Below, one piece after another: positions 11,061-31,679 of a stretch of DNA of 64,000 nt. This stretch comes from Acidithiobacillus ferridurans (lineage in GTDB: Bacteria; Pseudomonadota; Gammaproteobacteria; Acidithiobacillales; Acidithiobacillaceae), in NCBI RefSeq assembly GCF_003966655.1, contig NZ_AP018795.1:62001-126000 (forward strand), read 5' to 3'. Position numbers and translations under genes: made by a program. The notes under the pieces were generated by a model. It made no database searches. It was not told where the DNA came from and worked only from the letters and a program-made list of their open reading frames with translations. The stretch's first letter is position 1, and each line of letters begins with the position of its first letter.

Positions 11061-11192
11061 TGCGCTGTCTGCGTTGCTCTACAGCTGGATCGCAACACAC
11101 GCTTTTTCGAAACATTTTTTGTTATCGGTGGTAGCTGAAGAAACGCAGCAAGCGAGATCGGGATCACCCACCTCAAATAAGGAAACCCAAAG

Positions 11193-12212
11193 ATGCAGAT
11201 CGGAATGATAGGCCTGGGACGTATGGGCAGCAATATGGTGCGACGGCTGATACGGGGAGGACACCAATGCGTGGTGTACAACCGTCATCCCGGAGCCGTC
11301 AAGGCGCTCCACAGCGAAGGTGCCGTTGGCACGAACTCGCTTGACGATTTTGTCGCCCGTCTGACCAAACCACGCGCGATCTGGATGATGGTGCCGGCGA
11401 CGGTTGTGGATGAGGTGCTGGCGCAGCTGGTACCGCTGCTTGAAGCGGGCGATATCGTCATTGATGGTGGCAATTCCTACTACCGCGACGATATTCGGCG
11501 CGCTGCTGAATTGCAGCAACATGGGCTCCATTATGTGGATGCGGGTACCAGCGGCGGAGTCGCGGGTTTAGAACGCGGCTATTGCCTGATGATGGGCGGT
11601 GAGAAAGATACCGTCCAGCACCTTGATCCGATCTTCGCCACGCTTGCCCCCGGCCTAGGCACGGCAACTCCAACCCCGGGCCGGGACAAGCCCGCAGCCA
11701 CCGCAGATCAGGGCTATCTGCACTGCGGTCAGCACGGTGCCGGGCATTTCGTCAAGATGGTTCACAACGGGATCGAATATGGCCTGATGGCGGCGTATGC
11801 CGAGGGCCTGAATATTCTGCACAATGCCAATGTCGGCAAGCGCTCGCACGATAGCGATGCCGAGACCGCGCCGATGCGCAACCCGGAATTTTATCAGTAT
11901 GACCTGGATCTGCCCGAGATCGCGGAAGTCTGGCGACGTGGCAGCGTGGTGGCGTCATGGCTGCTTGATCTGACTGCAGCTGCGCTGGTTGAGGATGCTG
12001 ATCTCACCGGGTTCTCGGGGCGGGTGTCGGATTCGGGTGAGGGCCGCTGGACGGCACTGGCCGCTATCGATGAGGGCGTGCCGACACCGGTTATCAACGC
12101 GGCGCTGTTTGAGCGTTTTGCTTCGCGCGGCGATGCTGATTATGCCAACCGGATTCTGTCCGCGATGAGAAAGCAGTTTGGTGGGCACGACGAGAAAAAA
12201 GGCGAGCGCTGA
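11193..12212 (+). CDS. gnd: 6-phosphogluconate dehydrogenase (decarboxylating), short form
   Basis: 339 residues, matching the short YqeC/GndA-type family rather than the 470-residue enterobacterial enzyme. It oxidises 6-phosphogluconate to ribulose-5-phosphate and CO2. The N-terminal nucleotide site GLGRMGSN (residues 7-14), the substrate loop [11 protein letters not shown] near 116 and the catalytic segment with Lys188 and Asn192 ([12 protein letters not shown]) are all present. The short branch is often NAD-dependent, but cofactor preference is not proven here. AAGGAAA precedes the ATG. The next gene begins one base after its stop. Confidence 0.93.
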
Positions 12213-12213
12213 G

Positions 12214-13629
12214 ATGGAGCATACCGCAAACCGCATGATGCCGGCGGATGCGCTGGTGATCTTTGGCGTAACTGGCGATCTTGTCCACAAAATGATTTTC
12301 CCTGCGCTCTATGCGATGGCCAAGCACCGTGTACTCAACGTGCCGGTGGTAGGTGTTGCCGGTTCGAAGTTGAGCCTGGCGCAACTGCGTAAACGGGCGA
12401 AGGATAGCATCAAGCAAACCGGCAAGATCGATGACCGGGATGCCCTCGAACACCTCCTTTCCCTACTCCAGTATGTGGGCGGCGATTACAACGACCTGGA
12501 GACGTTCAAAGCCCTGAAACAGACCCTGGGCGATGCACAGCATCCTGCGCATTACCTTGCCATTCCCCCCGCACTGTTCGCGAAGGTGATCAAAGGGCTG
12601 GGTTCTTCTGGTCTGGCAGATCAGGCGCGCGTCATCGTCGAAAAGCCGTTCGGACGCGATCTGGCCTCGGCGCGGGAGCTCAACCGTATTGCGCTATCAG
12701 TGTTTAAAGAAGATTCGATTTTCCGCATTGACCACTATCTCGGGAAAGAGGCGATCATGAATATCCTTTATTTCCGATTCGCCAATTCGTTTCTCGAACC
12801 GATCTGGAACCGTAACCACGTGGCCAGCGTGCAGATCACCCTGGCCGAGGATTTCGGTGTAAAGGGTCGCGGAAAGTTTTACGAAAGCGCCGGTTGCCTG
12901 CGCGACGTCATCCAGAACCACATGTTCCAGGTTGCCGCGCTGCTGGCCATGGAGCCGCCGGCCTGTCAGGGCTATGGCGCCGTGCACAGCGAGAAAGCCA
13001 AAGTGTTTCAAGCCATGCGCCCCTTGCAGCCGGACGACATGGTGCGCGGCCAGTACGCGGGCTACCGCAAAGAGCCGGGCGTGGCGAAGGACTCGGACGT
13101 CGAGACATTCTGCGCATTGCGGCTGTTCATCGACTCGTGGCGCTGGCAAGGGGTGCCGTGGTACCTGCGTTCCGGCAAATGCCTGGCGGCAACAGCGGCT
13201 GAGGTTCTGGTGGAACTGAAACCACCGCCACAAAGGCTGTTCGACGATTCCGCACCGGCGGATGGGCGCGCCAATTACCTGCGCTTCCGGCTCTCTCCCA
13301 ACGCTGCCGTCGCCCTCGCCGTGCGCGTCAAGCGTGCTGGCAAAGAGTTCGTCGGCGACCAACGCGAGCTCTCCCTGCTGGATGAACAGCCGAACGAAGA
13401 AACACCCTACGAACGACTGCTGGGTGATGCCATGGCCGGCGATGGCGCGCTCTTCACCCGTGAGGATGCGGTGGAGGCTGCCTGGGCGGTAGTCGATCCG
13501 GTCCTTGAAACGCACCACCCGGCGCACTCCTATAAGCCGGGCAGCTGGGGACCGAAACAGGCTGACGCGCTGATTGCGGCAGACGGAATCTGGCACAACC
13601 CGAGGTTTTCTGATGTCACTTCCGATTGA
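12214..13629 (+). CDS. zwf: Glucose-6-phosphate 1-dehydrogenase
   Basis: 471 residues. The enzyme oxidises glucose-6-phosphate to 6-phosphogluconolactone and yields NADPH. The nucleotide-binding fold starts [11 protein letters not shown] near residue 16 and the signature RIDHYLGKE occupies residues 171-179, with the catalytic His and Lys. The ATG at 12214, one base after the gnd stop, is chosen because an earlier in-frame ATG at 12178 would add a poorly conserved stretch overlapping gnd by 35 bases. The next gene overlaps its 3' end by 17 bases. No separate 6-phosphogluconolactonase gene is seen in this block. Confidence 0.95.
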
Positions 13630-15436
13630 AGACTATGCCCTGATTGGCGACTGCCATACGGCAGCGCTGGTCGGCAGCGATGGATCTATCGACTGGCTGT
13701 GCTTTCCGAGATTTGATTCGGGTGCTTGTTTTGCTGCACTGTTGGGCGAGCCTGAACACGGACGCTGGTTAATCGCGCCAGTCGCAGAAGTGCGTAATAT
13801 CCGGCGCAAATATCGCCCCGGCACACTGATTCTGGAAACCGATTTCGAGGCCGACGCAGGCGCTGTGCGGATCATCGACTTCATGTCGCTCTCGGAAGAT
13901 CGTTGGGATGTCCTGCGTATCGTTGAAGGATTGCGTGGGCGAGTGGCCATGCGCATGGAGCTCATCATCCGCTTCGATTATGGTTCCATCATGCCTTGGG
14001 TGCAGCGGTCGGGCGATACGCTGCTGGCGACCGCCGGGCCGGACCGGCTGGAATTGCGCAGCGAAGTCGCCGTCCACGGAGAAAACATGAAAACCATGGC
14101 CGAGTTCCACGTGAGCAAGGGCGAGAGGATAAACTTTGCGCTCAATTATCGTCCTTCTTATGAAGCAGCTCAATCAACCATCGATCCGGAACAGGAACTG
14201 GTGGCAACCGAGAACGAGTGGCGTAAATGGTCCAAACGCTGCACCTACCAGGGACGCTGGCGCGACGCCGTCTTGCGCTCGCTGATCACTCTAAAGGCCC
14301 TGACTTATGCGCCCACCGGAGGAATTATTGCAGCGCCCACAACTTCGTTGCCGGAGCAGCATGGTGGCGTGCGTAACTGGGACTACCGTTACTGCTGGCT
14401 GCGTGATGCCACCTTCACGTTGAACGCGCTGCTGCTCGCCGGTTACCACGAAGAGGCCGTGGCCTGGCGCGAGTGGTTACTGCGCGCCATAGCGGGTAGC
14501 CCCGAAAGTCTGCAAACACTCTACAGCGTGACGGGGGAGCGGCGTCTGGAAGAATACGTGGTGGACTGGTTGCCCGGCTATGGGCGCGCGGTGCCTGTGC
14601 GGCTGGGCAACGCGGCATCTAAGCAGTTCCAGCTTGATGTCTACGGCGAAGTCATGGACACATTGCATCTGGCGCGAACCGTCGGCCTGGACCCGGAGCC
14701 GGCCGCCTGGCGGGTACAAGTCGCCATACTCCAATTCCTGGAATCGAACTGGCAGCAGCCGGATGACGGCATCTGGGAAATGCGCGGGCCGCAGCGCCAT
14801 TACACCTACTCCAAAGTGATGGCATGGGTGGCTTTCGATCGGGCGGTCAAGGATGTCGAGGCCTTCGAGCTTGACGGCCCGGTTGAGCGTTGGCGGCAGG
14901 TGCGCGATGCGATTCACGCGCAGGTTTGTTCGGAGGGCTATGATGCGCAGCGCAACACATTCGTGCAGTTCTACGGCGCGCCGCATCTTGATGCAAGCCT
15001 GCTGTTAATTCCGCAGGTGGGCTTTCTGCCATCGGACGATCCGCGCGTACTGGGTACGATAGAGGCCATCAAGCGCGACCTCGTGGTCGATGGATTGGTG
15101 TTGCGTTATAAGACCGATGCCGACATAGATGCACTGCCGTCTGGAGAGGGCGCGTTTTTGCCTTGTTCATACTGGCTGGCCGGCAGTCTTGCGTTGATTG
15201 GACGGCGCGAAGAAGCTGAAGCCTTGTTCGAGCGCCTGCTTGGCTTGAGTAACGATGTTGGATTGCTGGCGGAAGAATACGATACACGCGGGCGCTGCAT
15301 GCTGGGTAATTTTCCGCAGGCGCTGACGCACACGGCACTGATCAATACGGCCTATTTGCTGTCTATTCCAGAGGAACAGGCCAAACGCGCCAGCGAGGCA
15401 GGCGAACGGCCAGCCGCTGTGCTCCAAACGTCATGA
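13613..15436 (+). CDS. Glycoside hydrolase family 15 protein (glucoamylase/trehalase-like)
   Basis: 607 residues of the compact GH15 type often annotated as glucoamylase or trehalase. Anchors: [18 protein letters not shown] at the N-terminus, [16 protein letters not shown] near 252, the presumed general-acid region [18 protein letters not shown] near 386, and LLAEEYD with the second catalytic Glu near 550. It releases glucose from alpha-glucans or trehalose. The ATG at 13613 has GAGG upstream and overlaps zwf, indicating translational coupling; the longer start at 13574 is less likely. The gene sits between zwf and a glucokinase-like gene, a logical order for glucan breakdown into the pentose phosphate route. 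Confidence 0.9.
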
Positions 15437-15456
15437 AGCTGCAATTGGGGAAGAAT

Positions 15457-16185
15457 ATGAAGATACTTGTTATCGACGTCGGCGGCTCGCACGTCAAGTG
15501 TATCGCTAGCGGGCAAACAAATCCCGTCAAATTCAAATCCGGGCCGAAGCTGACCCCGCACCAGATGGTGCGAAAAGTTCTGAAGATCACCAAGGATTGG
15601 CAATTCGACGCGGTTTCGATTGGTTATCCCGGCGTGGTTCGCTACGGCAAGATTGTCCGCGAACCGCACAATCTGGGTTCGGGCTGGATTGGCTTCGATT
15701 TTCAAGCGGCCTTCGGGCGCCCGGTAAAGGCCATCAACGATGGGGCAATGCAGGCACTCGGCGGCTACGAAGGCGGAAAGATGCTGTTTCTTGGCCTGGG
15801 AACGGGGCTGGGATCGGCACTCATCGTCGATGGTGCGATTGCGGCGATGGAACTTGGGCATCTGCATTACTCGGAGGGGTGCAACTACGAAGACTATCTG
15901 GGCAAACAGGGGCGCAAGCGGCTGGGAAACAAGAAATGGCGTGGCAAAGTAATGGATGCCTTGGAGGGTTTCCGCAAGGCACTGTTGCCCGATTACATCG
16001 TGCTGGGCGGAGGCAATGCCGCAAAGCTGAAGCGAATGCCGCCGCAGACCCGTCGTGGCGACAACGCCGATGCGCTTCTTGGCGGTTTCCGTTTGTGGGA
16101 ACGGCAAAACCGGAATGCTGCAGGGCCAAGTGGAAATGCATGGACCTTGCCTATCTGGTTTGTTGCCAATCATGCTATCGAGTGA
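15457..16185 (+). CDS. ROK-family kinase, polyphosphate glucokinase-like
   Basis: 242 residues. The phosphate-binding loop VIDVGGSHVK at the N-terminus, IGYPGVV near 58, the INDGAMQALG segment carrying the catalytic Asp, and GLGTGLGSALI near 112 place it in the ROK family close to polyphosphate/ATP glucokinases. GGGGAAG directly upstream of the ATG at 15457 decides the start; an in-frame ATG at 15433 overlaps the GH15 stop. The last 25 residues beyond NADALLGGF look like a non-conserved tail. Product would be glucose-6-phosphate for zwf. Polyphosphate as donor is inferred from family resemblance and the nearby PPK2 gene. Confidence 0.8.
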   Translation: MKILVIDVGGSHVKCIASGQTNPVKFKSGPKLTPHQMVRKVLKITKDWQFDAVSIGYPGVVRYGKIVREPHNLGSGWIGFDFQAAFGRPVKAINDGAMQALGGYEGGKMLFLGLGTGLGSALIVDGAIAAMELGHLHYSEGCNYEDYLGKQGRKRLGNKKWRGKVMDALEGFRKALLPDYIVLGGGNAAKLKRMPPQTRRGDNADALLGGFRLWERQNRNAAGPSGNAWTLPIWFVANHAIE

Positions 16186-16409: not shown

Positions 16410-16844
16410 ATGACCCAGCTCATCGTCGCTGTGCCTCCAATACTTTGGCCGCTAGTCGTCTATTTTTTTGTTGTTATTGCTCTCGTTGTCACGATCCTCG
16501 CTGTCTCTTCGATACTCGGCGAACGCACGATCGGCCGAGCAACCAACGACATATTCGAGTCCGGCATTGTCACGGTCGGCAATGCCCGCTTTCGCGTACC
16601 GGCAAAATTTTATCTTATCGCCATGTTCTTTGTGATATTTGATCTAGAGACGGTATATCTCTTTGCATGGTCCGTCGTTGTGCGCACGGTCGGTTGGCCC
16701 GGCTATTTTGAGGCGCTCGCATTTATCATGATGCTCGTGGCGGCATTGGCATACCTGTGGCGAACAGGGGCACTTGAGTGGGCGCCAACCGGACGTCGGC
16801 CACTGGTGGTCACCGCAGAACGACGAGGGGAAACGAAGCAATGA
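16410..16844 (+). CDS. nuoA: NADH-quinone oxidoreductase subunit A
   Basis: 144-residue membrane subunit of complex I with three predicted helices. The segments [20 protein letters not shown] and [13 protein letters not shown] are the conserved NuoA signature, the latter carrying the acidic residues near the quinone end of the membrane arm. First gene of the nuo operon. A G-rich ribosome site precedes the ATG by about ten bases. The stop overlaps the nuoB start (ATGA). Confidence 0.95.
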
Positions 16845-17479
16845 AGTGGCAATTAACTGAAACATCTAACAAGCCCCCTGAATCAATCGATACAGGGACG
16901 ATCGACGACAACGTCCGGCGCAACGTGCTGCTAACGCGCCTTGAAGATCTTGTTTCCTGGGGTCGCAAAAACTCTGTCTGGCCTTTTAACTTTGGGCTTT
17001 CTTGTTGCTATGTAGAAATGGCAACAAGTTTCACCAGCAAATACGACATTGCACGGTTTGGTTCGGAAATCATTAGAGGCAGTCCACGACAAGCGGACTT
17101 GATGGTCGTGTCAGGGACTGTGTTCATGAAGATGGCGCCCGTACTGAAGCGCTTATATGAACAGATGATGGCCCCACGTTGGGTGATATCCATGGGCTCC
17201 TGCGCTAATTCTGGGGGGATGTACGATATTTACAGTGTCGTACAAGGGGTCGACAAGATTATACCCGTCGACGTGTATGTGCCAGGTTGTCCGCCTCGGC
17301 CGGATGCCCTGTTGCAAGGCCTCATTTTGCTTCAAGAATCAATAGGAAAAGAGCGGCGTCCATTGAGTTGGACTTTAGGGCCACAGACCACAGAGCGGTC
17401 TCCGAAACCAAGCCAACGCGACTTAGATAACGCTGAAAGAATCAAAGTTACAGGTCTTAGACATATGGATAAGGTTTAA
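16841..17479 (+). CDS. nuoB: NADH-quinone oxidoreductase subunit B
   Basis: 212-residue peripheral subunit that holds Fe-S cluster N2, the last electron carrier before quinone. The adjacent cysteines in GLSCCYVEM (Cys55-Cys56), the Cys in [10 protein letters not shown] and the Cys in YVPGCPPRP are the four N2 ligands. The ATG at 16841 overlaps the nuoA stop; a longer reading from 16778 would lie inside nuoA. A 277-bp gap, not typical of this otherwise tight operon, follows before nuoCD. Confidence 0.96.
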
Positions 17480-17719
17480 GGGACATACTGCTTGAGCTGC
17501 AGATTGCCAGTTGTTTGCACAAGAGCTGATGTTGAGCACGTGAATTTACCGGATACTGATGCAAAGCGTTGACGCAATGTTAACTGGCGCACGGACACAA
17601 GACAGACTATGCCTGCAGACTGTTTTGTAAAATAGGATGCGTTAGGAGAGATGCTGGATCTCGGGGAGTTCACGCGGAACTGCATACGGTACGCCGCCCC
17701 TCGCCCTTAAAACATTCTT

Positions 17720-17735
17720 GGTGGCTCATGCCACC
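17720..17735 (+). other. Stem-loop before nuoCD
   Basis: GGTGGC-TCAT-GCCACC is a perfect 6-bp stem with a four-base loop, eleven bases upstream of the nuoCD ribosome site AGGAG (17747-17751). It lies in the only long intergenic gap of the operon (17480-17756). No run of T follows, so it is not a classical terminator; an RNA processing or stabilising element is possible. The rest of the gap shows no gene. Confidence 0.4.
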
Positions 17736-17756
17736 CGCAGAACGTCAGGAGCCACA

Positions 17757-19508
17757 ATGGGCAGTTCGGATGCCGCCATCTGCGATTTACACCGTATATT
17801 CGGGCAAGATCATTTCGTCTCGCAACCTGCATGCGATGCAGACATTCCCATGATTTGGGTCGCGAAAGATACATTTCATGCCGTGCTTCGCTACCTAAAA
17901 TCGAGCATCGACAGGCCGTACCGGATGCTATACGACATGACCGCCATCGACGAACGGGTACGCAATCACCGTGAAGGCCAGCCGCCAAGCGATTTTACGG
18001 TTGTCTATCACCTCCTATCTTTTGAGCGCAATGCCAGTCTGCGAATAAAAGTGGCCCTGCTCGGGGAGTATCCGTCGCTTCCAACCATCACCGATACGTG
18101 GCCCGCGGCAAATTGGTACGAGCGTGAGGTTTGGGACATGTTTGGCATCACGTTTGATGGGCACCTACACATGACACGACTCCTGCTCCCACCAACATGG
18201 GACGGGCACCCACTGCGCAAAGAGCACCCCGCACGCGCTACCGAGATGGGCGAGTATAGGCTCCCCGACGACAAACAGGATCGGGAACAAGAGGCTTTGC
18301 GGTTCAAGCCTGAAGACTGGGGCATGAAAAGCGGCGACGGCAATACCGACTTTATGTTTCTTAATCTTGGACCCAACCACCCCGGCGTACACGGCGTATT
18401 CCGCATTATCTTGCAATTGGATGGTGAGGAGATCGTCGACGCCGTGCCTGATATCGGGTATCACCACCGTGGTGCCGAAAAAATGGCGGAGCGCCAGTCT
18501 TGGCACAGCTATATCCCCTATACCGACCGCATCGATTATTTGGGCGGCGTGATGAATAACTTGCCCTATGTTTTAGCAGTCGAGAAATTGGCGGGGATCG
18601 TGGTACCCGATCGCGTCAAGGTAATTAGGGTCATGATGGCGGAGTTTTTTCGAATTGCGAGTCACCTCGTTTTTTACGGTACGTTTGTCCAAGACATCGG
18701 TGCCCTGTCGCCGGTGTTTTATATGTTTTCTGACCGCGAGCGCGTTTTTGACATTGTCGAAGCGATTTGCGGTGGCCGCATGCACCCGAGCTGGTTTCGC
18801 ATTGGCGGGGTCGCGCATGACTTACCGGAGGGCTGGGATCGTTTGGTGGCGGATTTTTTGACGTACTTCAAGCCGCGCATGGATCACTACGATCGCATGC
18901 TTATGGGCAATAAGATTTTGAAAAAACGCACCCAAGGGGTCGGTCAGTATACCGTGGATGAAGCCATCGAGTGGGGTGTCACGGGTGCCGGCCTGCGGGC
19001 TTGTGGCTTGGAGTGGGACTTTCGAAAGAAACAACCGTATTCCGGGTACGATCAATTCGAGTTCGACATTCCTATAGCCACGCATGGCGACTCTTATGAC
19101 CGGTGTTGGGTCCGCGTCCAGGAGCTCCGTCAGAGCGTGCGCATAATAGAGCAGTGCCTTGCCCATATGCCAGTAGGCGAATATAAGGCCCGTCACCACC
19201 TTACGACACCGCCGCTCAAAGACCACACCATGCACGATATAGAAACGCTGATTAACCACTTTTTAGGCGTCAGTTGGGGCCCAGTTATGCCTCCCGGCGA
19301 GGCATTCCAGAATATTGAGGCCACCAAGGGGGCGAATGGCTATTACTTGGTAAGCGATGGAAGCACGATGTCCTACCGCACGCGCATTCGCACACCCTCT
19401 TTCCCCCACCTGCAAATGATTCCTTTGATTTCGCGCGGATTCATGATTCCCGATCTGATCGCCACACTCGGCAGTATAGATTTTGTTATGGCCGACGTTG
19501 ACCGCTGA
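17757..19508 (+). CDS. nuoCD: NADH-quinone oxidoreductase, fused subunits C and D
   Basis: 583 residues. The N-terminal 180 residues are NuoC ([14 protein letters not shown] and [16 protein letters not shown]), the rest is NuoD, which forms the quinone site with NuoB ([38 protein letters not shown], and the C-terminal [18 protein letters not shown]). Fusion of C and D is known from enterobacteria and some other proteobacteria. The ATG at 17757 has AGGAG five bases upstream; the frame stays open back to 17718. The stop is followed at once by nuoE. Confidence 0.96.
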
Positions 19509-19516
19509 GGATGCCC

Positions 19517-19981
19517 ATGCTGACTATCGACGAACAACAGGAAATAGAGGCCCAATACCCCCGTTACGCCACCAAACAAGGGGCGAGTGTTGAGGCATTA
19601 AAAATTGTCCAACGCCGCTGTGGCTGGGTGTCCGACGAAGATGTCAAAGAGGTGGCTGCGTTTTTAGATATGCCTTACGAGGAATTGGAGGGTGTGGCGA
19701 CTTTCTATAACTTGGTGTTTAGGCGGCCCGTCGGAAGACACACCATTCTTATCTGCGACAACGTCAGTTGCTGGATTACAGGTTATCGGGCCATACGCGA
19801 TGCCCTCATTACCCGTCTGGGCGCTGAACTCGGCGAAACAACCGCCGACAAGCGATTTACTCTCTTGCCGATACCGTGTTTGGGGGCCTGCGACCATGCA
19901 CCGGCTATGATGGTCGGACTGGATCTACACGGTGACCTTCAGGTGGATCAGATCGATGTAATTTTGCAGAAATATGAATAA
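19517..19981 (+). CDS. nuoE: NADH-quinone oxidoreductase subunit E
   Basis: 154 residues, thioredoxin-like subunit binding the 2Fe-2S cluster N1a. Ligands are the two Cys in ICDNVSCW and the two in CLGACDHAP. GAGG at 19507-19510 is six bases from the ATG at 19517, so this start is preferred over the ATG at 19511 that abuts it. Overlaps nuoF by eight bases. Confidence 0.95.
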   Translation: MLTIDEQQEIEAQYPRYATKQGASVEALKIVQRRCGWVSDEDVKEVAAFLDMPYEELEGVATFYNLVFRRPVGRHTILICDNVSCWITGYRAIRDALITRLGAELGETTADKRFTLLPIPCLGACDHAPAMMVGLDLHGDLQVDQIDVILQKYE

Positions 19982-21269
19982 AAACATTATGCCATACGAC
20001 AAACCCCTTACGGCCAACATCGATCCCGGTCGTGAACCTCTTAACCTGCGGGAATATGAACAAGCGGGGGGGTATCGGGCTCTGCGTACCGCACTTCTCA
20101 GTCTGGAGCCCGCCCATATTACGAACTTGGTGCTCGATGCCGGCTTACGCGGTTGCGGCGGCGCCGGCTTTCCTACGGGAAAGAAATGGAACCATATGGA
20201 GCTCGGCAAGGACGCGCGGCACCCGAAGTATTTGGTCGTCAATGCGGATGAAATGGAACCGGGAACATTTAAAGATCGCTTCCTTTTAGAGGGGGATCCG
20301 CATCAGATGATTGAGGCGACCATCGTGAGTGGTTATGCCATTCAAGCTGATATTGCCTATATATTTTTGCGCTGGGCCTACAATCGTGCCGCGCAGCGGC
20401 TCACGAAGGCCATAGCCGAAGCCTACGACAAGGGCTACCTCGGAAAAAATATCCTGGGTTCCGGATATAGCTTGGATATCTATCTGCACACCAGTGCAGG
20501 TCGCTACATATGCGGAGAATCGAGCGCCATGTTAAACGCCATTGAAGGGAAGCGCGCCATGCCGCGCAAAGATAGCCATGCCACAGCAAGTGGCTTGTGG
20601 GGCAAACCGACTGTTGTTAACAACGTTGAAACCCTTTGCAATGTGCCGCACATCGTGAATAACGGGGTCGCCTGGTACAAGGGCCTCAGCATCACTAAAG
20701 CCGGCGGCACGAAGATCTATGGTGTGAGCGGCAAGGTGCGGCATCCGGGCGCGTGGGAACTGCCGATGGGCACTTCCATGCGTGAAATTCTTGAAGAACA
20801 TGCCGGCGGGATGCGCGCGGGACTGAAGTTTCGGGCGCTGTTACCGGGCGGCGCGTCGACCGCGTTTGTCCTTGAAGAAGGGTTAGACGTCAGCATGGAT
20901 TTTGATTCACTGCAGGCGTTGGGGAGTCGTATGGGCACCGGCACGATGATTATCCTCGATGATAAGACCTGTCCGGTGGATATGTTGGTGAGCCTGCAGC
21001 GCTTCTTTGCGCAAGAATCTTGTGGCTGGTGTACCCCCTGCCGCGAAGGGCTCCCATGGATCGCGAAAATGCTGGTTGCGATTGACGAGGGCGCAGGCAA
21101 AACAGAGGATTTAGACGAACTGGCGGTTCATGCGAAATTTTTGGGTTCCGGATATACCTACTGCGCACTGGCTCCAGGCGCAACTGCATCCCTCGAAAGC
21201 GGCCTAAAGTATTTTAAAGCCGATTTTGAACGTCATGTGCACGACAAACATTGTCCTTGGAGAACGTAA
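19974..21269 (+). CDS. nuoF: NADH-quinone oxidoreductase subunit F, with Ser in place of Glu183
   Basis: 431-residue flavoprotein subunit that exchanges electrons with NAD(P)H through FMN and cluster N3. Glycine-rich GCGGAGFPTG, the acidic NADEMEPGT (Glu equivalent to E. coli Glu95) and the N3 ligands ESCGWCTPCREG plus the later Cys in YCALAPGA are intact. At residues 180-186 the sequence is CGESSAM, where E. coli and most homologues read CGEETAL. Ser183 therefore replaces the Glu that in E. coli NuoF limits NADPH use. The rest of the protein aligns well with E. coli, so an annotation or frame error is unlikely. Confidence 0.96.
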   Translation: MNKNIMPYDKPLTANIDPGREPLNLREYEQAGGYRALRTALLSLEPAHITNLVLDAGLRGCGGAGFPTGKKWNHMELGKDARHPKYLVVNADEMEPGTFKDRFLLEGDPHQMIEATIVSGYAIQADIAYIFLRWAYNRAAQRLTKAIAEAYDKGYLGKNILGSGYSLDIYLHTSAGRYICGESSAMLNAIEGKRAMPRKDSHATASGLWGKPTVVNNVETLCNVPHIVNNGVAWYKGLSITKAGGTKIYGVSGKVRHPGAWELPMGTSMREILEEHAGGMRAGLKFRALLPGGASTAFVLEEGLDVSMDFDSLQALGSRMGTGTMIILDDKTCPVDMLVSLQRFFAQESCGWCTPCREGLPWIAKMLVAIDEGAGKTEDLDELAVHAKFLGSGYTYCALAPGATASLESGLKYFKADFERHVHDKHCPWRT

Positions 21270-23987
21270 ATGGCGACAATCTTCATTGACAACCAGCCTT
21301 ACGAGGTCTGTTCGGGCCAGAGCCTGCTTCAGCAGTGCCTAACGTTGGGTATGGATATTCCCTACTTCTGTTGGCATCCAGCACTGGGGGCAGTCGGCGC
21401 TTGTCGCCAATGTGCGGTAAAAGAGTTTCGTGATGAAAAGGACACCCAAGGACGCGTGGTCATGTCTTGTATGACGCCCATAAAAGATGGTATGCGCATT
21501 TCTGTGAACGATCCGCAAGTGCGGGAATTTCGCGCCCACGTCATTGAATGGCTTATGGAGAATCACCCCCATGATTGTCCCATCTGTGACGAAGGCGGTG
21601 AATGTCATTTGCAGGACATGACGGTGATGTCCGGTCACACTTATCGCCGGTACCGATTCAAGAAACGGACGTTTCGCAATCAGGATCTCGGCCCGTGCAT
21701 TAACCACGAGATGAATCGTTGCATTACCTGCTACCGGTGCATCCGCTTTTATCAGGATTACGCGGGAGGCCATGACCTTCGGGCCTTTGCCTCCAAAGAT
21801 CATGTCTACTTCGGGCGTCATACGGACGGTACCCTAGAAAGCGAGTTTAGTGGCAATCTTGTCGAGATCTGCCCGACCGGTGTTTTTACTGACAAGACCC
21901 TAAAAAAACACTACACGCGCAAATGGGACCTACAGACATCGCCATCGGTATGCGTCCACTGTGGGTTAGGTTGCAACATTATTGTCGGTGAACGATACGG
22001 GAAGGTACGCCGCATCTTGAATCGTTACAATGGCCAGGTAAACGGCTATTTCCTTTGCGATCGGGGCCGGTTTGGCTATGAGTTTGTCAACAACGATAAC
22101 CGGTTGCGCCAACCTTCGCTGGGCACTTATGAACGATCGGCGTTGGCGACGAAGCCGCAGACGTTGGCGGCCATGGCAGACCTTGTCCGTAACGACAGGA
22201 GGCTTATCGGTATAGGCTCGCCGCGCGCTTCCCTTGAAGCCAACTTCGCACTCAAAACACTGGTCGGCGCCGATCGGTTCTATTTAGGTACGTCGGACAC
22301 TGATACCCACCTCGTGGCGATCATCCTCGATATTCTACAGCGAAGCCCCGCCAAAATTGCCTCTCTCTACGATGTAGAGCGAGCCGACGCGGTCTTTATT
22401 CTCGGCGAGGATGTGTCCAACACCGCTCCCCGCTTGGCGCTAGCCTTACGCCAGGCCCTGCGTACCGCGTTTGGTGGACTTCTTGAAACTTTGCACATCG
22501 CGCCCTGGCTTGATCGTGCGGCGCGCCAAGCCAGCGCTTTGGAGGCCGCCTCCCCGATTTACATCGCGACCCCCAATGCCACACGTCTTGACGATATCGC
22601 AAGGGGGCTTTTTCGCGCCGCGCCCGACGATATCGCACGGCTGGGATTTGCCGTCGCCCATGAACTGAGCACCCAAGCACCGGCAGTAACGGACTTGACC
22701 GACGAGATGGGAAGCCGGGCCGCCGCGATCGCTGCGGCGCTGCGGCAAGCAAGTCATCCGCTGATCATCTCCGGGATCGGCTGCGCCAGTCCGGCAGTGA
22801 TCCACGCCGCGGCCAATGTGGTGGCGGCACTCTGCGAAATCGGCAAGGACGCCCAACTTTGTTTAACGGTCGCCGAAGTCAACAGTTTGGGATTGGCGAT
22901 GATCGGCGGACACCGCCTCAGTGAAGCCTTTGCGGTTGTCCATGAGGACGGGGCGCCAACAGTCATTGTTCTGGAAAATGACCTTTACCGGCGGGCGTCT
23001 CAGTCTTCGGTAGATGCGTTTCTGAAAGTAGCCGGTCACGTGATTGTCATCGACCACACGGCCAATAACACGACCGCCCTGGCCGATTGCCGATTGCCGG
23101 CGGCCACGTTTGCCGAAGGGTCGGGCACTTTCGTCAGCAGCGAGGCGCGTGCACAACGGTTCTTTAGTACAGTAGGGCCTAGTGAAAATGTTCAAGAGAG
23201 CTGGCGATGGGTCCGCGACATTGCCGCGATACGCGGATCTGAACCGGCGTCCGGTTGGAATCGTCTTGATGACGTGACGGCTGCTTGCGCTCAGACTGTA
23301 CCGCTACTGCATTCTATTCCCGAGGCGGCACCCAATGCCAACTTTCGGATCGTTGGGCAAAAGATCCCGCGAGAACCGCATCGCGCCAGTGGCCGCACCG
23401 CCATACACGCGCAGGAACACATAAGCGAACATCGGCCACCAACCGACCGGGATTCCCCTTTTGCATTTTCCATGGAAGGCGCCCTAAACCCGCCGCCTGC
23501 GGCGCTGATTCCGGTCTACTGGGCGCCGCGCTGGAATTCGGTGGCGGCGACCGCCAAGTTTCAGAGTGAAGTGGGGGGACCGTTGCGCGGTGGTGATCCG
23601 GGCGTACGGCTTATCGAACCGGCGCCAACGGCCATACCCATCTATGCTGTCGAGGTGCCCGCCGCATTCCAGCGCCGAAGTCAGGAATGGTTGGTGCTGC
23701 CGCTGTATTATGTGTTCGGCAGTGAAGAACTGAGCGCCCAGGCACCGGCAGTGGCGGACCGCTCACCGACGCCCTATCTCTGCTTAAACCCCGAAGATGC
23801 TGCCGCTTTTGGCGGTGCCGGGGATTGTCGGGTAGGCCTGACTATCAACGGCACTGTTTATGACCTACCCATCCAGCTTATGAACGACCTGCCCGTTGGT
23901 ATCGCCGGTTTGCCCGCCGGCCTGCCGGGTATCCCGACAGCATCGTTGCCCGCCTGGGGTACGTTGGCCCGAGGGTTGCCTCTATGA
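21270..23987 (+). CDS. nuoG: NADH-quinone oxidoreductase subunit G
   Basis: 905-residue Fe-S subunit of the peripheral arm. N1b ligands lie in the first 70 residues ([15 protein letters not shown]), the His-coordinated N5 and the N4 ligands follow ([14 protein letters not shown], then [14 protein letters not shown]). A further motif CVHCGLGC with a downstream CDRGRFG is the N7 site found in only some bacterial NuoG proteins. The C-terminal half is molybdopterin-enzyme-like and less conserved, with a long Pro/Ala-rich final part. Starts directly after nuoF; its TGA overlaps the nuoH ATG. Confidence 0.95.
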
Positions 23988-24940
23988 CCCCCATCGCCGC
24001 CGGCCTCCTAAACGTCTTCGGTATCCTTTTTGCGGTACTTGGCATGAGCGCTGGTCTGATCTGGGTTGAACGGCGTCTACTGGCATTATGGCAGGATCGT
24101 TATGGGCCTAACCGAGTCGGCCCGTTCGGCTTACTGCAAGTTGTGGCCGACATGATCAAGATATTCTTCAAAGATGATTGGATACCGGCGTTTGTCGACA
24201 AACCAACGTTTGTATTGGCACCAATGATCATTGTGATTACGACACTCCTGGCATTCGCCGTGATACCTCTGGCTCCCGCTATCGGCGTTGCTAACCTCAA
24301 CATCGGCCTTTTGTTTGTGCTCGGTATGTCATCGCTGAGCGTCTACAGTATCGTATTGGCGGGCTGGTCCTCGAATAATAAATACAGCCTTTTAGGTGCC
24401 CTCCGTGGTGCCGCTCAAATGTTAAGTTATGAAGTCTTCATGGGCCTGTCTCTACTAGGTGTAGTCGCCCTATCGGGGTCATTCAATCTCCGCCAGATCG
24501 TCGAATCCCAGAAAGGCCTGTGGTTTTGTATTCCACAGGTTTTCGGGTTTATCGTTTTCGTGATAGCGGGTATCGCGGAAGCGCGGCGACTTCCTTTTGA
24601 CCTGCCAGAGGGAGACGCCGAATTGATTGCCGGTTTTCACACCGAGTACTCAGGGCTCAAGTTCGGTCTGTTTTTTGTTGGTGAGTACATCGGCGTAATT
24701 CTTATAGCGGCCCTGATTACGACCCTTTTCTTTGGTGGCTGGCTAGGTCCGTGGCTGCCGCCTATCGTCTGGTTTCTTATTAAGCTCCTTTTCTGGATCG
24801 CCTTTTTTATTCTGTTACGCGCGGCGTTGCCGCGGCCTCGTTACGACCAGATAATGGCCTATGGCTGGAAGGTTATGTTGCCAGTTTCGTTAGGCAATCT
24901 GGCGATAACGGGTGCCGTAGTATTGGTGTTGCATCGGTAA
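23984..24940 (+). CDS. nuoH: NADH-quinone oxidoreductase subunit H
   Basis: 318-residue membrane subunit with about eight helices at the junction to the peripheral arm. The motifs [19 protein letters not shown] and [20 protein letters not shown] are the conserved quinone-chamber loops, with a typical set of acidic residues. Length and motif order are normal. The start overlaps nuoG by four bases. Confidence 0.96.
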
Positions 24941-24958
24941 TGGACAAGGATACGTCAA

Positions 24959-25492
24959 ATGATACTTGATGGCCCCATTGGGAGTTCCTTAAAAACGATC
25001 TGGGAAGTTTTACGTCACACGTTTGCACGACGCGTGACCATCCAATACCCCGATGAACAACCCTATCTGCCACCACGCTGGCGTGGGCGCATCATTCTTT
25101 CGCGTGATCCTGATGGCGAGGAGCGTTGTGTCGCCTGCTATCTCTGTGCGGTTGCGTGCCCCGTCGATTGCATTGCCTTGCAAGCAACCGAGGATTCGGA
25201 GGGGCGGCGTTATCCAGAGTTCTTTCGCATCAACTTCTCGCGTTGCATTTTCTGCGGGTTATGCGAAGAAGCGTGCCCAACATACGCCATTCAGCTTACG
25301 CCTGATTTTGAGATGTGTGAGTACGACCGAACGAACCTTGTTTACGAGAAAGAGCATCTGACTATTAGCGGAACCGGCAAATATCCGGATTATAACTTCT
25401 ACCGTGTCGCGGGCGTCGCTGTCGGCGTAAAAGACAAGGGCAACGGAGAAAATGAAGTGTCACCAGTCGACGTCAAGAGCTTGATGCCTTGA
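24959..25492 (+). CDS. nuoI: NADH-quinone oxidoreductase subunit I
   Basis: 177 residues with two 4Fe-4S ferredoxin motifs ([15 protein letters not shown] and [15 protein letters not shown]), which hold clusters N6a and N6b. The N-terminal amphipathic region and the C-terminal extension after the second motif are usual for the family. It lies 18 bases after nuoH. Confidence 0.95.
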
Positions 25493-25540
25493 TGAGGCAT
25501 CGCGTTCACGGTTGGGAATATTATTTTCAGAGGATCGTTT

Positions 25541-26044
25541 ATGGAAATCTCTTTCTACATTGCCTCTATAGTTGCTGTCGTGGCAACCGTTATGGTTATC
25601 ACCGGACTCAATGCCATCCATGCACTTCTCTATTTCGTCGTCTCGCTGCTCGCCGTGGCGGTAGTCTTTTATATCCTCGGTGCACCTTTTATCGCTGCGC
25701 TAGAGGTTATCGTTTACGCAGGCGCGATCGTGGTGCTGTTCGTGTTTGTTGTCATGATGCTCAATATCGGCAAAGAGGTCATCGCGCAGGAGTGGCGGTG
25801 GCTAACGCTAAGAATTTGGGTGGGGCCCACTATTCTCTCAAGCATTCTCTTCATTGAACTAATAGACATGCTCAGTCAGGGTGGGAACCATCCCGCAGGT
25901 CAAACATTAGTGGGACCCAAGGCCGTCGGGGTCCTGTTGTTTGGCCCCTATCTCCTGGCCGTGGAGATAGCCTCCATGCTGCTACTTGCAGGGCTCGTCG
26001 GCGCCTACCGTATCGCTCAACCCGAACGGAAAGGAGAAAGCTAA
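25541..26044 (+). CDS. nuoJ: NADH-quinone oxidoreductase subunit J
   Basis: 167-residue membrane subunit with five predicted helices. The segment ALEVIVYAGAIVVLFVFVVM is the conserved third helix, with the pi-bulge Tyr/Gly region known from complex I structures. AGAGGA lies upstream of the ATG at 25541. A different frame from 25489 is a shadow. Confidence 0.94.
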   Translation: MEISFYIASIVAVVATVMVITGLNAIHALLYFVVSLLAVAVVFYILGAPFIAALEVIVYAGAIVVLFVFVVMMLNIGKEVIAQEWRWLTLRIWVGPTILSSILFIELIDMLSQGGNHPAGQTLVGPKAVGVLLFGPYLLAVEIASMLLLAGLVGAYRIAQPERKGES

Positions 26045-26047
26045 CCC

Positions 26048-26356
26048 ATGTCAACCGTACCCATGACATACGGACTTTTTCTGGCCATGGTCCTTTTCGT
26101 GCTCGGTCTTATTTGCGTGCTTGTTCGACGCAACATTATTTTCATATTGATAGGACTAGAGATCATGCTAAACGCCTCGGGACTTGCGTTTGTGGTGGCG
26201 GGCGCACGCTGGGGGAGTGGTGATGGGCAAATTATGTTCATTCTGATTCTGACGCTGGCCGCGGTCGAAGTGTCTATTGGGCTTGCCCTCATTCTCCAGA
26301 TGGACCGGCAGCAGAAAACGCTCGATATCGATTCCATCAGCAAAATGCGAGGCTGA
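26048..26356 (+). CDS. nuoK: NADH-quinone oxidoreductase subunit K
   Basis: 102 residues, three helices. The two membrane glutamates needed for proton transfer are visible in [13 protein letters not shown] and [17 protein letters not shown] precedes the ATG. Usual length; three bases after the nuoJ stop. Confidence 0.95.
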
Positions 26357-26357
26357 G

Positions 26358-28259
26358 ATGCTAGACCTCTTGTGGCTTGTGCCGACCTTTCCGCTTCTTG
26401 GATTTTTGATCCTCTTTGTGACAGCCGGTGCGCTCAGTCGACGCGCAATTGCGATCGTCGGTGTGGGCTCGGTGGGACTGTCGATGTTGGTATTTATGGC
26501 TGTGGTCGCCACATTTCTTCACACACCCCCGCTGGGGCATGCGTATACGCAGACACTTTGGACGTGGGTCAATGTCATGGGCTTTGATCCGAAGATCGCC
26601 TTCTATCTAGATCCCCTGTCGCTCATTATGACGCTGGTGGTGACCTTCGTCGGTTTTCTTATTCACCTTTACTCTACTGAGTTTATGATCGACGACGACG
26701 GCTACAACCGCTTTTTCGCTTATATGAATTTGTTTGTCGCGTCCATGCTCATCCTTCTTTTGGCTAACAACCTGTTATTGCTGTTCGTCGGCTGGGAAGG
26801 CGTAGGCCTATGCAGCTATCTGCTGATCGGATTCTGGTATGACAAACCAGAAAACGGCGCAGCGGCCCAAAAAGCCTTTATCGTCACCCGGATTGGCGAC
26901 GTCGCCATGGCGGTCGGATTGTTTCTGCTGTTTACCCACCTGGGAACGCTCAACATACAAGAACTGATGCAGCGCGCCGTCCGCGCGTGGCCGGTCGGCA
27001 CTGATTTACCGATCGCCGCGGCTTTGCTGTTACTGGGCGGCGCCGTGGGGAAGTCTGCCCAACTTCCTTTGCAGACCTGGCTCCCGGACGCCATGGCCGG
27101 GCCTAGTCCTGTCAGCGCCTTAATCCACGCCGCGACCATGGTAACCGCCGGGGTCTATCTGATCGCCCGTATGCATGTCTTGTACGGTCTGGCGCCCTCA
27201 GTCGAACACCTTATCGCGATCGGTGGCGCACTCACACTTCTCTTGGCGGGCTTTAGTGCCTTGACGCAGTGGGATATTAAGCGCGTCTTGGCCTATTCCA
27301 CTATGAGCCAAGTGGGATATATGTTTCTGGCCAACGGGGTGGGGGCCTATTCACCGGCCATTTTTCACTTCATGGTTCACGCCTTTTTCAAGGCGCTCCT
27401 ATTCCTCAGCGCGGGCCTCGTCATCCAGGCCACAGGGGATGAGCACAACATCTTTAAGCTCGGTGGCTTACGGAAAGAGCTACCCTTTATATTTTGGCCG
27501 TTCCTTATTGGTGCCTCGACGTTAGCGGCGGTGCCCCTGGTGACCGCGGGATTCTATAGTAAAGGGTTAATTCTCCAAGACGTCTGGTCATCGACCAACG
27601 GCGGCCCGTGGCTGTGGGCCGCCGCTTGGGTTGGCGAATTTCTCACTGGCATGTATGCCTTTCGCCTCGTTTTTCTCGTTTTCTTTGGAGAATCGAAGAC
27701 CCCGATTCGGCCACAGTACCGGGCGGGCTACCGCGTAATGATCCCGCTCATCGCCCTTTCGGCACTTTGTCTCGTCGGAGGGTTTATTAACCTTCCACCG
27801 GGCCTTGGTAACACGCCGTGGTTCACACATTTCCTCCACACAGCCCTGCCACCGACGCCCAAGGTGTCCGCACACGGCGATATGGAAACCCGTTTTACCT
27901 TGATGGGACTCGCGGCCGCTGCTTCGCTCGGTGGTATTTACTCTGCCTGGCTCTTTTTCCGCCATGGTCGTGGCATGCATTGGCTTGCGAACACGGGGTT
28001 CGGTGCGGCCGTGCACCGCCTGTGGTTTACGGACTGGGGCTTTGATGGGTTATACGACCGGGCATTGGTCCGTCCGTATCGGTATTGGGCGCATCTCAAT
28101 CGTAACGACTTTATCGATAGCGTCTACGACGGCGTCGCATGGGTCACTCGACGAACTCACCGGCTAGCCGCGACGACGCAAAACGGGCAACTACGCAGAT
28201 ATACGATGGTTCTCGCCACCGGTTCCGTGATCTTTATCACTATGGTGGTCTTTCTATGA
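26358..28259 (+). CDS. nuoL: NADH-quinone oxidoreductase subunit L
   Basis: 633-residue antiporter-like proton-pumping subunit with about 14 to 16 helices and the long lateral helix at the C-terminus. Conserved parts include LLLFVGWEGVGLCSYLLIGF (key Glu), GKSAQLPLQTWLPDAMAGP with the Lys of helix 7, and the broken-helix region near HAATMVTAGVYL. The ATG at 26358, one base after the nuoK stop, is the true start; a longer frame from 26277 lies in nuoK. Its end overlaps nuoM. Confidence 0.96.
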   Translation: MLDLLWLVPTFPLLGFLILFVTAGALSRRAIAIVGVGSVGLSMLVFMAVVATFLHTPPLGHAYTQTLWTWVNVMGFDPKIAFYLDPLSLIMTLVVTFVGFLIHLYSTEFMIDDDGYNRFFAYMNLFVASMLILLLANNLLLLFVGWEGVGLCSYLLIGFWYDKPENGAAAQKAFIVTRIGDVAMAVGLFLLFTHLGTLNIQELMQRAVRAWPVGTDLPIAAALLLLGGAVGKSAQLPLQTWLPDAMAGPSPVSALIHAATMVTAGVYLIARMHVLYGLAPSVEHLIAIGGALTLLLAGFSALTQWDIKRVLAYSTMSQVGYMFLANGVGAYSPAIFHFMVHAFFKALLFLSAGLVIQATGDEHNIFKLGGLRKELPFIFWPFLIGASTLAAVPLVTAGFYSKGLILQDVWSSTNGGPWLWAAAWVGEFLTGMYAFRLVFLVFFGESKTPIRPQYRAGYRVMIPLIALSALCLVGGFINLPPGLGNTPWFTHFLHTALPPTPKVSAHGDMETRFTLMGLAAAASLGGIYSAWLFFRHGRGMHWLANTGFGAAVHRLWFTDWGFDGLYDRALVRPYRYWAHLNRNDFIDSVYDGVAWVTRRTHRLAATTQNGQLRRYTMVLATGSVIFITMVVFL

Positions 28260-29764
28260 TCCTCATTAGCCTTATCGCGGTGTTATTTGGCGGGGGGCTT
28301 CTCGCCTGGGCATTGGGACGCTGGAACCCTCAGGCGTCACGGTGGGTATCGCTGCTCGCGCTCACCACCGACCTTGTTCTGGCGTTAGACTTGTGGAAGC
28401 GGCATGCCGATGCTGTGGGGCTATCAGGAAAAGGGCCGTGGATCACAGCGGTGAACCTGGCTTGGATCCCCCAACTCGGTATTCGTTTTCATCTCGCGCT
28501 TGATGGCCTAAGCCTTCTGTTGGTCGTCCTTACGCTCTTTTTAGGCCTCATGTCGGTCGTGACGTCGTGGCGGGAAATTAAGACACATGTCGGCTTCTTT
28601 CACTTTAACCTGCTATGGGTACTCGCCGCGGCTCTCGGGGTGTTTCTTGCCCTGGATCTCTTCTTATTCGCTTTTTTCTGGGAAATGATGTTGGTGCCCA
28701 TGTATCTCCTGATTGGCATTTGGGGCCACGAAAATCGCGCTTACGCGGCTATCAAGTTCTTTATCTTTACCCAAGCAAGCGGGCTTCTGATGCTGGTCGC
28801 CATTATTGCGCTCGCAATGATCCACTATGCCGATACTGGAGTACTCACGTTTGATTACTTTCAGCTTTTGCACACGCCCCTGAGTCCAGCGATCGCGACC
28901 TGGCTCATGCTCGGCTTTCTTGCTGCGTTTCTGGTGAAACTGCCTGCCGTGCCGTTCCATACCTGGCTCCCTGACGCCCATACCCAAGCACCGACGGCCG
29001 GCAGCGTGATCCTCGCCGGGGTATTGCTACAAACGGGGGCCTATGGCTTGCTCCGTTTTATCGTGCCGCTGTTTCCGCATGCCGCTTTACGCTTTACGCC
29101 GATCGCGCTCACGATCGGTGTCATTGGTATCCTGTATGGTGCGTTTCAAGCGTTTGCGCAAACCGACCTCAAACGCCTCGTCGCATACGGTAGTGTCAGT
29201 CACATGGCGTTCATTCTTTTAGGGGTTTTTACCTGGAACGCCCTCGCGCTGCAAGGGAGCGTTATGCAAATGCTGGCCTCTGGTCTTAGCACCGGCGCAC
29301 TCTTTATGCTGGTCGGTTCACTGCAGGAACGCATTCACACCCGCGATATGACGAAGATGGGCGGGATATGGTCGATCGCACCACGCATGGGTGCCATCGG
29401 CATGTTTTTTGCTATGGCCGCTCTCGGAATACCAGGGCTTGCAAATTTCCCGGGGGAGTTCCTCACGCTGCTCGCTACCTATCGTGCACATGTGACGCTG
29501 ACGATCCTCGCCACGGCAGGGTTCGTCCCGGCAACCATCTATGCACTTACGCTCGTCCAGAAAACGTTTCACGGCAAAAAATCGCAGGATATGGTTTTCG
29601 TGGACTATTCCGTTCGGGAAATGTCGATGATGTCGGTGTTAATGTTGGTCGTCATTTGGCTCGGCGTCTACCCACAGTCGGTACTGAGCCTTGCCAGTCC
29701 GGCATTAATGGGGCTACAGCATATGGCTGCGCTACCGCATACTCTGGCGGGCACCAGGCCATGA
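28256..29764 (+). CDS. nuoM: NADH-quinone oxidoreductase subunit M
   Basis: 502-residue antiporter-like subunit, second proton channel of the membrane arm. FAFFWEMMLVPMYLLIGIWG (essential Glu) and LPAVPFHTWLPDAHTQAPT (helix 7 Lys region) are clear. The ATG at 28256 overlaps the nuoL stop by four bases; the open frame upstream to 28139 is inside nuoL. Confidence 0.96.
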   Translation: MILISLIAVLFGGGLLAWALGRWNPQASRWVSLLALTTDLVLALDLWKRHADAVGLSGKGPWITAVNLAWIPQLGIRFHLALDGLSLLLVVLTLFLGLMSVVTSWREIKTHVGFFHFNLLWVLAAALGVFLALDLFLFAFFWEMMLVPMYLLIGIWGHENRAYAAIKFFIFTQASGLLMLVAIIALAMIHYADTGVLTFDYFQLLHTPLSPAIATWLMLGFLAAFLVKLPAVPFHTWLPDAHTQAPTAGSVILAGVLLQTGAYGLLRFIVPLFPHAALRFTPIALTIGVIGILYGAFQAFAQTDLKRLVAYGSVSHMAFILLGVFTWNALALQGSVMQMLASGLSTGALFMLVGSLQERIHTRDMTKMGGIWSIAPRMGAIGMFFAMAALGIPGLANFPGEFLTLLATYRAHVTLTILATAGFVPATIYALTLVQKTFHGKKSQDMVFVDYSVREMSMMSVLMLVVIWLGVYPQSVLSLASPALMGLQHMAALPHTLAGTRP

Positions 29765-31209: not shown

Positions 31210-31460
31210 ATCCGTCTTCGCCTTGCCGTCTTCGTGCACGCTCAAAAAACATGCGGAGCCTGTCGCGTCCGTATCGAAAGGTCAGCAGAAACCACCGCGG
31301 GCACCGACCGTGGCCCAGCGGCCTGCCTGGCGTCTTCTCCGCAGACGGGCCTCACCTTCCCATAAGGCAGACGGATCGCTACCCGCGGACCCGCTGCTGC
31401 GCTCGACGGCACCTACAGAACGCGGGTTGCCTCGCCCGTGTCGCGGGGCCTGCTTGCAGT
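31210..31460. other. Degenerate interval after nuo
   Basis: About 250 bases between the nuoN stop and a CFA-synthase fragment. Several frames are open in part because of high GC content, but none of the translations resembles a protein family that I know. It is probably eroded sequence at a rearrangement junction. Confidence 0.4.
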
Positions 31461-31679
31461 GACTTCATCGACAAGTATATCTTTCCCGATGGCGAAATCC
31501 CCCATCTGTGGCGGGTGATCCAAGATATGGCAGGACAGGATCTCGAAGTTCTAGATGTGGAAAATAATCTCCATCCCCATAGGGCGGGCGAGGCATTGAC
31601 TCCCCGGCACTGGGAACGCCGTTATCAGTATCAGAAGGACCGCTTCCGGCTGGCGGAACCGGATTGGTGTGATCTGTGA
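31461..31679 (+). pseudogene. Fragment of a CFA-synthase-like methyltransferase
   Basis: The frame reads SDFIDKYIFPDGEIPHL followed by VIQDMAGQDLEVLDVEN, the region just before the C-terminal third of cyclopropane-fatty-acid synthases (compare MGDFIEKYIFPGG in the intact cfa of this window). The SAM-binding half is missing, and after the DVEN motif the sequence stops resembling the family and ends HWERRYQYQKDRF...WCDL. The TGA at 31677-31679 overlaps the GTG start of the phosphatase, so the original operon order is partly preserved. Confidence 0.6.

Follow-up and report, generated by a model that had tools for sequence, protein, structure and literature searches.

A variant NuoF in a second complex I of Acidithiobacillus ferridurans and its possible use of NADP(H)

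Complex I is generally regarded as NADH-specific, and its NADPH-accepting forms have been made by mutation. In NuoF, the nucleotide-binding subunit, an acidic residue at position 183 (E. coli numbering) is tied to NADH specificity, although it is no requirement for membership of complex I. A nuo cluster of Acidithiobacillus ferridurans encodes a NuoF with serine at this position, which raises the question of whether a natural complex I may accept NADP(H). The cluster lies within the window, i.e., the whole stretch of 64,000 nucleotides that was analysed (positions 62001-126000 of a genome consisting of a single contig of 2,921,399 bases).

The complex I encoded in the window

A profile search of the genome yields exactly two matches to the Complex1_51K family, one in the window and one at 577 kb. 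The window nuo cluster is the second, E. coli-type complex I of A. ferridurans: all 13 genes (A, B, CD, and E-N) are open between window positions 16410 and 31209, the full NDH-1 subunit set is present, and the gene order as well as the NuoCD fusion match those of E. coli complex I (NuoA-N). The preliminary description had treated the cluster as the ordinary complex I of an acidophile, a setting that does not hold, since the other NuoF of the genome (L052, at 577 kb), with its CGEETAL and KPPFP motifs, keeps Glu183. The features of the region, in window coordinates, are as follows.

9012..13629, + strand: transketolase, 6-phosphogluconate dehydrogenase, and glucose-6-phosphate dehydrogenase genes (context, upstream of nuoA)
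13574..16185, + strand: a trehalase-like gene of family GH15 and a ROK gene resembling polyphosphate glucokinase (context; both score under the curated cut-offs of the NCBIfam models bearing these names)
16410..16844, + strand: nuoA
16841..17479, + strand: nuoB (start not settled)
17718..19508, + strand: nuoCD, a fusion of the E. coli type (true start possibly inside)
19511..19981, + strand: nuoE (four cysteines in 2Fe-2S spacing)
19974..21269, + strand: nuoF, nucleotide-binding 51-kDa subunit of 431 amino acids (Complex1_51K and NADH_4Fe-4S domains)
21270..23987, + strand: nuoG
23984..26356, + strand: nuoH, nuoI, nuoJ, and nuoK
26358..31209, + strand: nuoL, nuoM, and nuoN (starts not settled)

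Directly 3' of nuoN, an open reading frame (31095-31679) resembles, over a stretch of its length, the C-terminal region of cyclopropane fatty acid synthase; the match lies far under the curated cut-off, and the frame is possibly a remnant.

The window NuoF is at most 52% identical to its matches in 16 congeners, and no other NuoF match above that value was found in the 17 genomes of the genus searched (its own included). It is 92% identical to a MAG protein (L001), encoded on a contig of 3,935 bases with a coverage of 2.0 in its title and a possible mis-binning, 69% identical to the NuoF of a genome from the same order (G030), and 66% identical to that of a Nitrospirae MAG. The GC content amounts to 0.541 in the window nuo cluster, 0.601 in the sugar genes just upstream, and 0.576 in the ordinary nuo cluster. 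The low identity to congeners, the high identity to the MAG and G030 proteins, and the GC difference suggest that the window complex I was probably acquired horizontally by A. ferridurans. Plasmid relatives were set aside: none of the 124 plasmid records at E ≤1e-100 reaches 60% identity, and the one that was read carries Glu183. Bacteroidota relatives were set aside as well: a match at E ≤1e-120 occurs in 3 of 247 genomes, centre included, and the two new ones have Glu183.

Residue 183 and the linked changes in the nucleotide pocket

Over residues 3-419, the window NuoF and its E. coli counterpart share 51.7% identity. The Fe-S cysteines, the catalytic Lys, and Glu95 are common to both proteins; Ser183, Cys61, and the KDSHA loop set the window protein apart. 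The relevant elements of its nucleotide pocket are located as follows.

20154..20156, + strand: Cys61 (codon tgc), replacing the Arg of GRGGAGF (E. coli Arg62) in the alignment
20184..20186, + strand: Lys71 of the xKW motif, kept (Lys in 200 of 200 readable rows); equated by motif with the essential Lys157 of FdsB
20241..20264, + strand: NADEMEPG, including Glu95, on the nicotinamide side of the pocket, kept in the alignment (Glu95 adjoins the nicotinamide, according to the available sections of PMC6560083)
20511..20531, + strand: CGESSAM, residues 180-186 (tgc gga gaa tcg agc gcc atg)
20520..20522, + strand: Ser183 (codon tcg), replacing in the alignment the specificity Glu (E. coli Glu183, FdsB Glu259)
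20568..20582, + strand: KDSHA, residues 199-203, replacing KPPFP in the alignment; the loop is one residue shorter

A renewed reading of the translation confirmed the location and numbering previously given for CGESSAM, and alignments with PDB sequences bear out the claim that Ser183 stands at the position of E. coli Glu183 (Glu185 in Thermus Nqo1). The substitution proved to be rare. Residue 183 was compared in 201 distinct NuoF proteins (222 loci, drawn from the best matches of genome searches and from stretches picked from hit lists, and hence a sample in which the window protein's relatives weigh heavily). It is Glu in 183, Asp in 15, Ser in two, and Ala in one; an acidic residue is thus found in 198 and an uncharged one in only three, all from one clade. 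An earlier count of 123 distinct proteins had given 105, 15, two, and one, respectively. The two Ser183 proteins are those of the window and of the MAG, and the Ala183 protein is that of G030. Sequencing error was rejected as the source of Ser183, given the serine in the MAG protein and the alanine in G030. Nor is Ser183 a rule of the genus: in other Acidithiobacillaceae, the NuoF copies read (some second copies and the partial matches in G002 and G015 being left out) have Glu or, in a second complex I, Asp. A variant and a Glu183 NuoF are both encoded in A. ferridurans (G000), G030, and the MAG genome (G451).

The Asp183 type belongs to the second complex I of other Acidithiobacillaceae; its 15 distinct proteins (L026-L039 and L044) share 46-52% identity with the window NuoF. 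In many of these organisms it also has Cys at 62, KKPPHIS or KKPPHIA, and NLDETEPG instead of NADExEPG. Like the window protein, it represents a second copy with an Arg62-to-Cys replacement and His at the KPPF Phe position; unlike the window protein, it retains an acid at 183.

Residue 183 co-varies with the rest of the pocket. The pairs of residues 183 and 62 in the 201 distinct proteins are Glu/Arg (180), Glu/unreadable (3), Asp/Cys (15), Ser/Cys (2), and Ala/Met (1), i.e., Arg62 is kept in all 180 readable Glu183 proteins and missing from all 18 others. The KPPF Phe position, occupied in the window protein by His202 (FdsB Leu279 by counting), is Phe in 160, Tyr in 20, and His in three of the Glu183 rows, His in both Ser rows and in all 15 Asp rows, and Arg in the Ala row. 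A candidate positive group for the 2'-phosphate at this position is His202 in the window and MAG proteins and Arg in G030. The residue preceding the catalytic Lys is basic in all three proteins, although Lys is found there in nine Glu183 rows too. On the nicotinamide side, Glu95 is present in 199 of 200 readable rows (Asp in the remaining one), and the NuoF Fe-S cysteines are intact in the window protein.

How the changes are distributed was assessed on 96 positions with a conservation of at least 93% in a set of 106 Glu183 rows, one of them from E. coli. At 12 of these positions the window protein departs: 61, 112, 115, 135, 183, 184, 186, 200-203, and 406. Seven departures fall within the segment 183-203, which holds 12 of the conserved positions (hypergeometric P 4e-5, for a segment picked with the data in view); together with residue 61, the segment accounts for eight of the 12. 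Ser183 belongs to a set of joint substitutions and is no lone change. In L216, from a genome (G945) of the same phylum as the Nitrospirae MAG (G452), CGEEATMM and KPPHLS were observed: Glu183 is kept, with differences in the three residues that follow and in the loop.

In the reconstructed trees, the Ser and Ala proteins group in a single clade (SH-aLRT 99 with 124 rows; 95/99 with 50 rows), and the Asp183 proteins are found on a separate branch. A single origin of the Ser, Ala, and Asp proteins together is not rejected (p-AU 0.134); both topology tests concern these three types jointly, and the support for Ser plus Ala is that of the drawn tree.

Nucleotide specificity suggested by homologues

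The Glu183 variants of E. coli complex I engineered by Morina in 2011 reportedly show a shift towards NADPH. The loss of Glu183 is common to these variants and the window NuoF; the latter differs in being natural, in the additional alteration of Arg62 and the KPPFP loop, and in carrying Ser rather than Gln or His.

A larger set of substitutions is available for FdsB, the NuoF homologue in the formate dehydrogenase of R. capsulatus (available sections of PMC10671435, the source of all FdsB data given here). The wild type has no NADP+ activity; its Glu259 contacts the ribose 2'-hydroxyl, and its Lys157 is essential. Replacement of Glu259 by Arg, Lys, Gly, or Gln (with His added in the discussion) resulted in NADP+ activity, as did L279R and K276A, whereas Asp at 259 gave none. 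The single mutants showed weak affinity, combinations were no better or not expressed, and the NAD+ Km of Glu259 variants was up to 62 times higher. The same source cites E. coli complex I, in which Glu to Gln or His also favoured NADPH. These variants support the earlier proposal that position 183 acts as a gate between NADH and NADPH.

By motif counting, Glu259 corresponds to Glu183, Leu279 to the KPPF Phe, and Lys276 to the KPPF Lys. On this equivalence, the window NuoF would combine a permissive change at the main gate with His at the second position, both lysines being kept, and the G030 protein would carry permissive changes at both (Ala183 and Arg). The two positions altered in the window protein are those of the FdsB Glu259 and L279R variants, which reduce NADP+; FdsB, however, is part of a soluble formate dehydrogenase with engineered changes, whereas the window NuoF belongs to a natural complex I, and Ser at 259 and His at 279 lie outside the substitutions reported in the available sections of PMC10671435. 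The gain of NADP+ activity with Gly, Gln, Arg, or Lys at Glu259 and with L279R, but not with Asp, tips the balance slightly towards acceptance of NADP(H) by the window complex I, whether the enzyme is dual or NADP(H)-preferring and in whichever direction it runs. A truly NADP(H)-preferring natural complex I is a more tentative proposition.

With Ser183, Cys61, and the KDSHA loop, the window NuoF has a remodelled pocket where the adenosine moiety of the nucleotide binds. With Glu183 lost, the 2'-phosphate would no longer be repelled and NADP(H) could be accepted; electrons would travel between NADP(H) and quinone by way of FMN and the Fe-S chain, accompanied by the proton pumping usual for complex I, and the ordinary complex I, if intact, would handle NADH. 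The proteins of A. ferridurans, the MAG, and G030 might constitute a natural clade of NADPH:quinone oxidoreductases, marked by a joint switch of Glu183, Arg62, and the KPPFP loop; beside an NADH complex I, such enzymes would establish a direct coupling of the cell's NADPH pool to the quinone pool and the proton-motive force. The odds lie somewhat against this fuller picture. The presence of His202 without a new Arg in the window loop counts against NADP(H) use; three Glu183 proteins also have His there.

The strongest competing explanation is that NADH specificity is essentially retained, the ribose contact being rebuilt by Ser183, Cys61, and the new loop (with lower affinity or different regulation) and no useful NADPH activity being gained. 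It can draw on the intact catalytic residues and on the second complex I of the congeners, in which Arg62 gave way to Cys and the Phe to His, while an acid, Asp, stayed at 183; the pocket can evidently be remodelled with the acid retained. The Asp183 enzymes are probably of the NADH type by analogy with the Asp variant of FdsB, so that the two changes they share with the window NuoF do not by themselves mean NADPH. In the window clade, however, the acid is wholly lost, and the uncharged Gly and Gln did confer NADP+ activity on FdsB, with the raised NAD+ Km noted above, and an essentially NADH-specific enzyme is rather unlikely.

Decay of the nucleotide site, or the use of another electron donor, with Ser as drift in a redundant copy, would agree with the complex being a second copy and with the additional loss of Arg62 and the loop. 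Against it, all 13 nuo genes are open, NuoF preserves its Fe-S ligands as well as Lys71 and Glu95, and most conserved-position departures are confined to residue 61 and the 183-203 segment. Between the window and the MAG, dN/dS is 0.11 for nuoF, with Ser183 unchanged, and 0.12 for nuoG (first 499 codons), values which, with caution over the MAG contig, indicate that the variant nuoF is under purifying selection. This reading is improbable.

Among the matches listed in a search of open-licence papers, neither a natural NADPH complex I nor this second operon was found; nothing on NuoF nucleotide specificity was found in the available parts of PMC10482914 and PMC10715153.

Genomic surroundings and NADPH metabolism

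The genes upstream of nuoA connect the locus with sugar and pentose-phosphate metabolism and lean slightly towards oxidation as the direction of the complex. The link is loose. The sugar genes and nuoA are separated by 224 bases with one promoter-like match on the + strand (two sites in the stretch, 0.8 expected). Pentose-phosphate neighbours were found near nuo in none of five relatives, four of which are readable only 4.7-7 kb upstream; a conserved pentose-phosphate/nuo unit was rejected on these grounds, G030 alone being readable on both sides and the MAG contig being too short. The idea that the 'YNR' motif of Gnd is an unusual NADP switch paired with nuo was discarded, as Asn-Arg is present in 24 of the 29 homologues read. 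In Zwf, an Arg serves as the 2'-phosphate contact; the window Zwf has GVAGSK and lacks this Arg. Its zwf type occurs only in A. ferridurans among the 36 genomes searched (own included), the next best match being 41% identical. The window zwf (12178-13629) has a 95% identical, N-terminally truncated copy about 58 kb away (L195, at 132.8 kb), near repeated open reading frames resembling mobile-element genes by eye, and an 89% identical fragment at 1.977 Mb.

A route from sugar through NADPH to quinone is therefore attractive but weak in view of the GC difference, the gap with its promoter-like match, the relatives lacking such neighbours, the common Gnd motif, and the Zwf without Arg. The missing Zwf Arg, the GC difference, and the unshared neighbourhood also count against NADPH use by the window complex.

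In favour of some NADPH role counts the apparent lack of transhydrogenases: no match to PntB was found in the A. ferridurans genome (4 of 14 control genomes match). The model for the soluble transhydrogenase gave 18 weaker matches to related flavoproteins but none over its cut-off, which only 1 of the 14 controls passes. Other sources may also supply NADPH, e.g., a group 3b hydrogenase, which is taken here to be linked to NADP. An enzyme of this group is named in the A. ferridurans announcement (PMC6256440).

The proposal that the complex runs in reverse and reduces NADP+ for CO2 fixation, a special case of NADP(H) use whose probability overlaps with it, fits a chemolithotroph with Calvin cycle genes (PMC6256440) in which no PntB match and no soluble transhydrogenase over the cut-off was found. 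It is nevertheless quite unlikely. The only GAPDH match in the genome carries VNDL, presumably an NAD-type motif, which deprives a role in carbon fixation of support; moreover, the genes upstream serve sugar catabolism, which speaks for oxidation no less than for reverse flow, the genome holds an ordinary complex I gene cluster as well, and the sequence bears no known mark of direction. Of the preliminary reading, the proposed use of NADP(H) has been strengthened by the linked changes and the homologue mutants, but its attribution to the ordinary complex I, to reverse flow, and to carbon fixation is not supported.

Compared with G014, the ordinary nuoF has one base fewer in a G run near its start, which puts it out of frame, and the ordinary gnd (L186, at 2.907 Mb), beside an open ordinary zwf, is split over two frames; for each of the two, the window cluster holds an open counterpart. 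The assembly was built solely from PacBio reads (PMC6256440), so that these breaks may be artefacts. Should the nuoF break be genuine, the window complex I would be the sole working one and more likely to need NADH too.

The co-variation at residues 62, 183, and 203 provides a simple signature by which others may search for further members. If the NADP(H) reading is true, evolution would have made the same switch as the engineered mutants, a ready enzyme would be available for the engineering of NADPH supply, and redox balance would have to be redrawn for acidophilic lithotrophs that have yielded neither of the two kinds of transhydrogenase sought.
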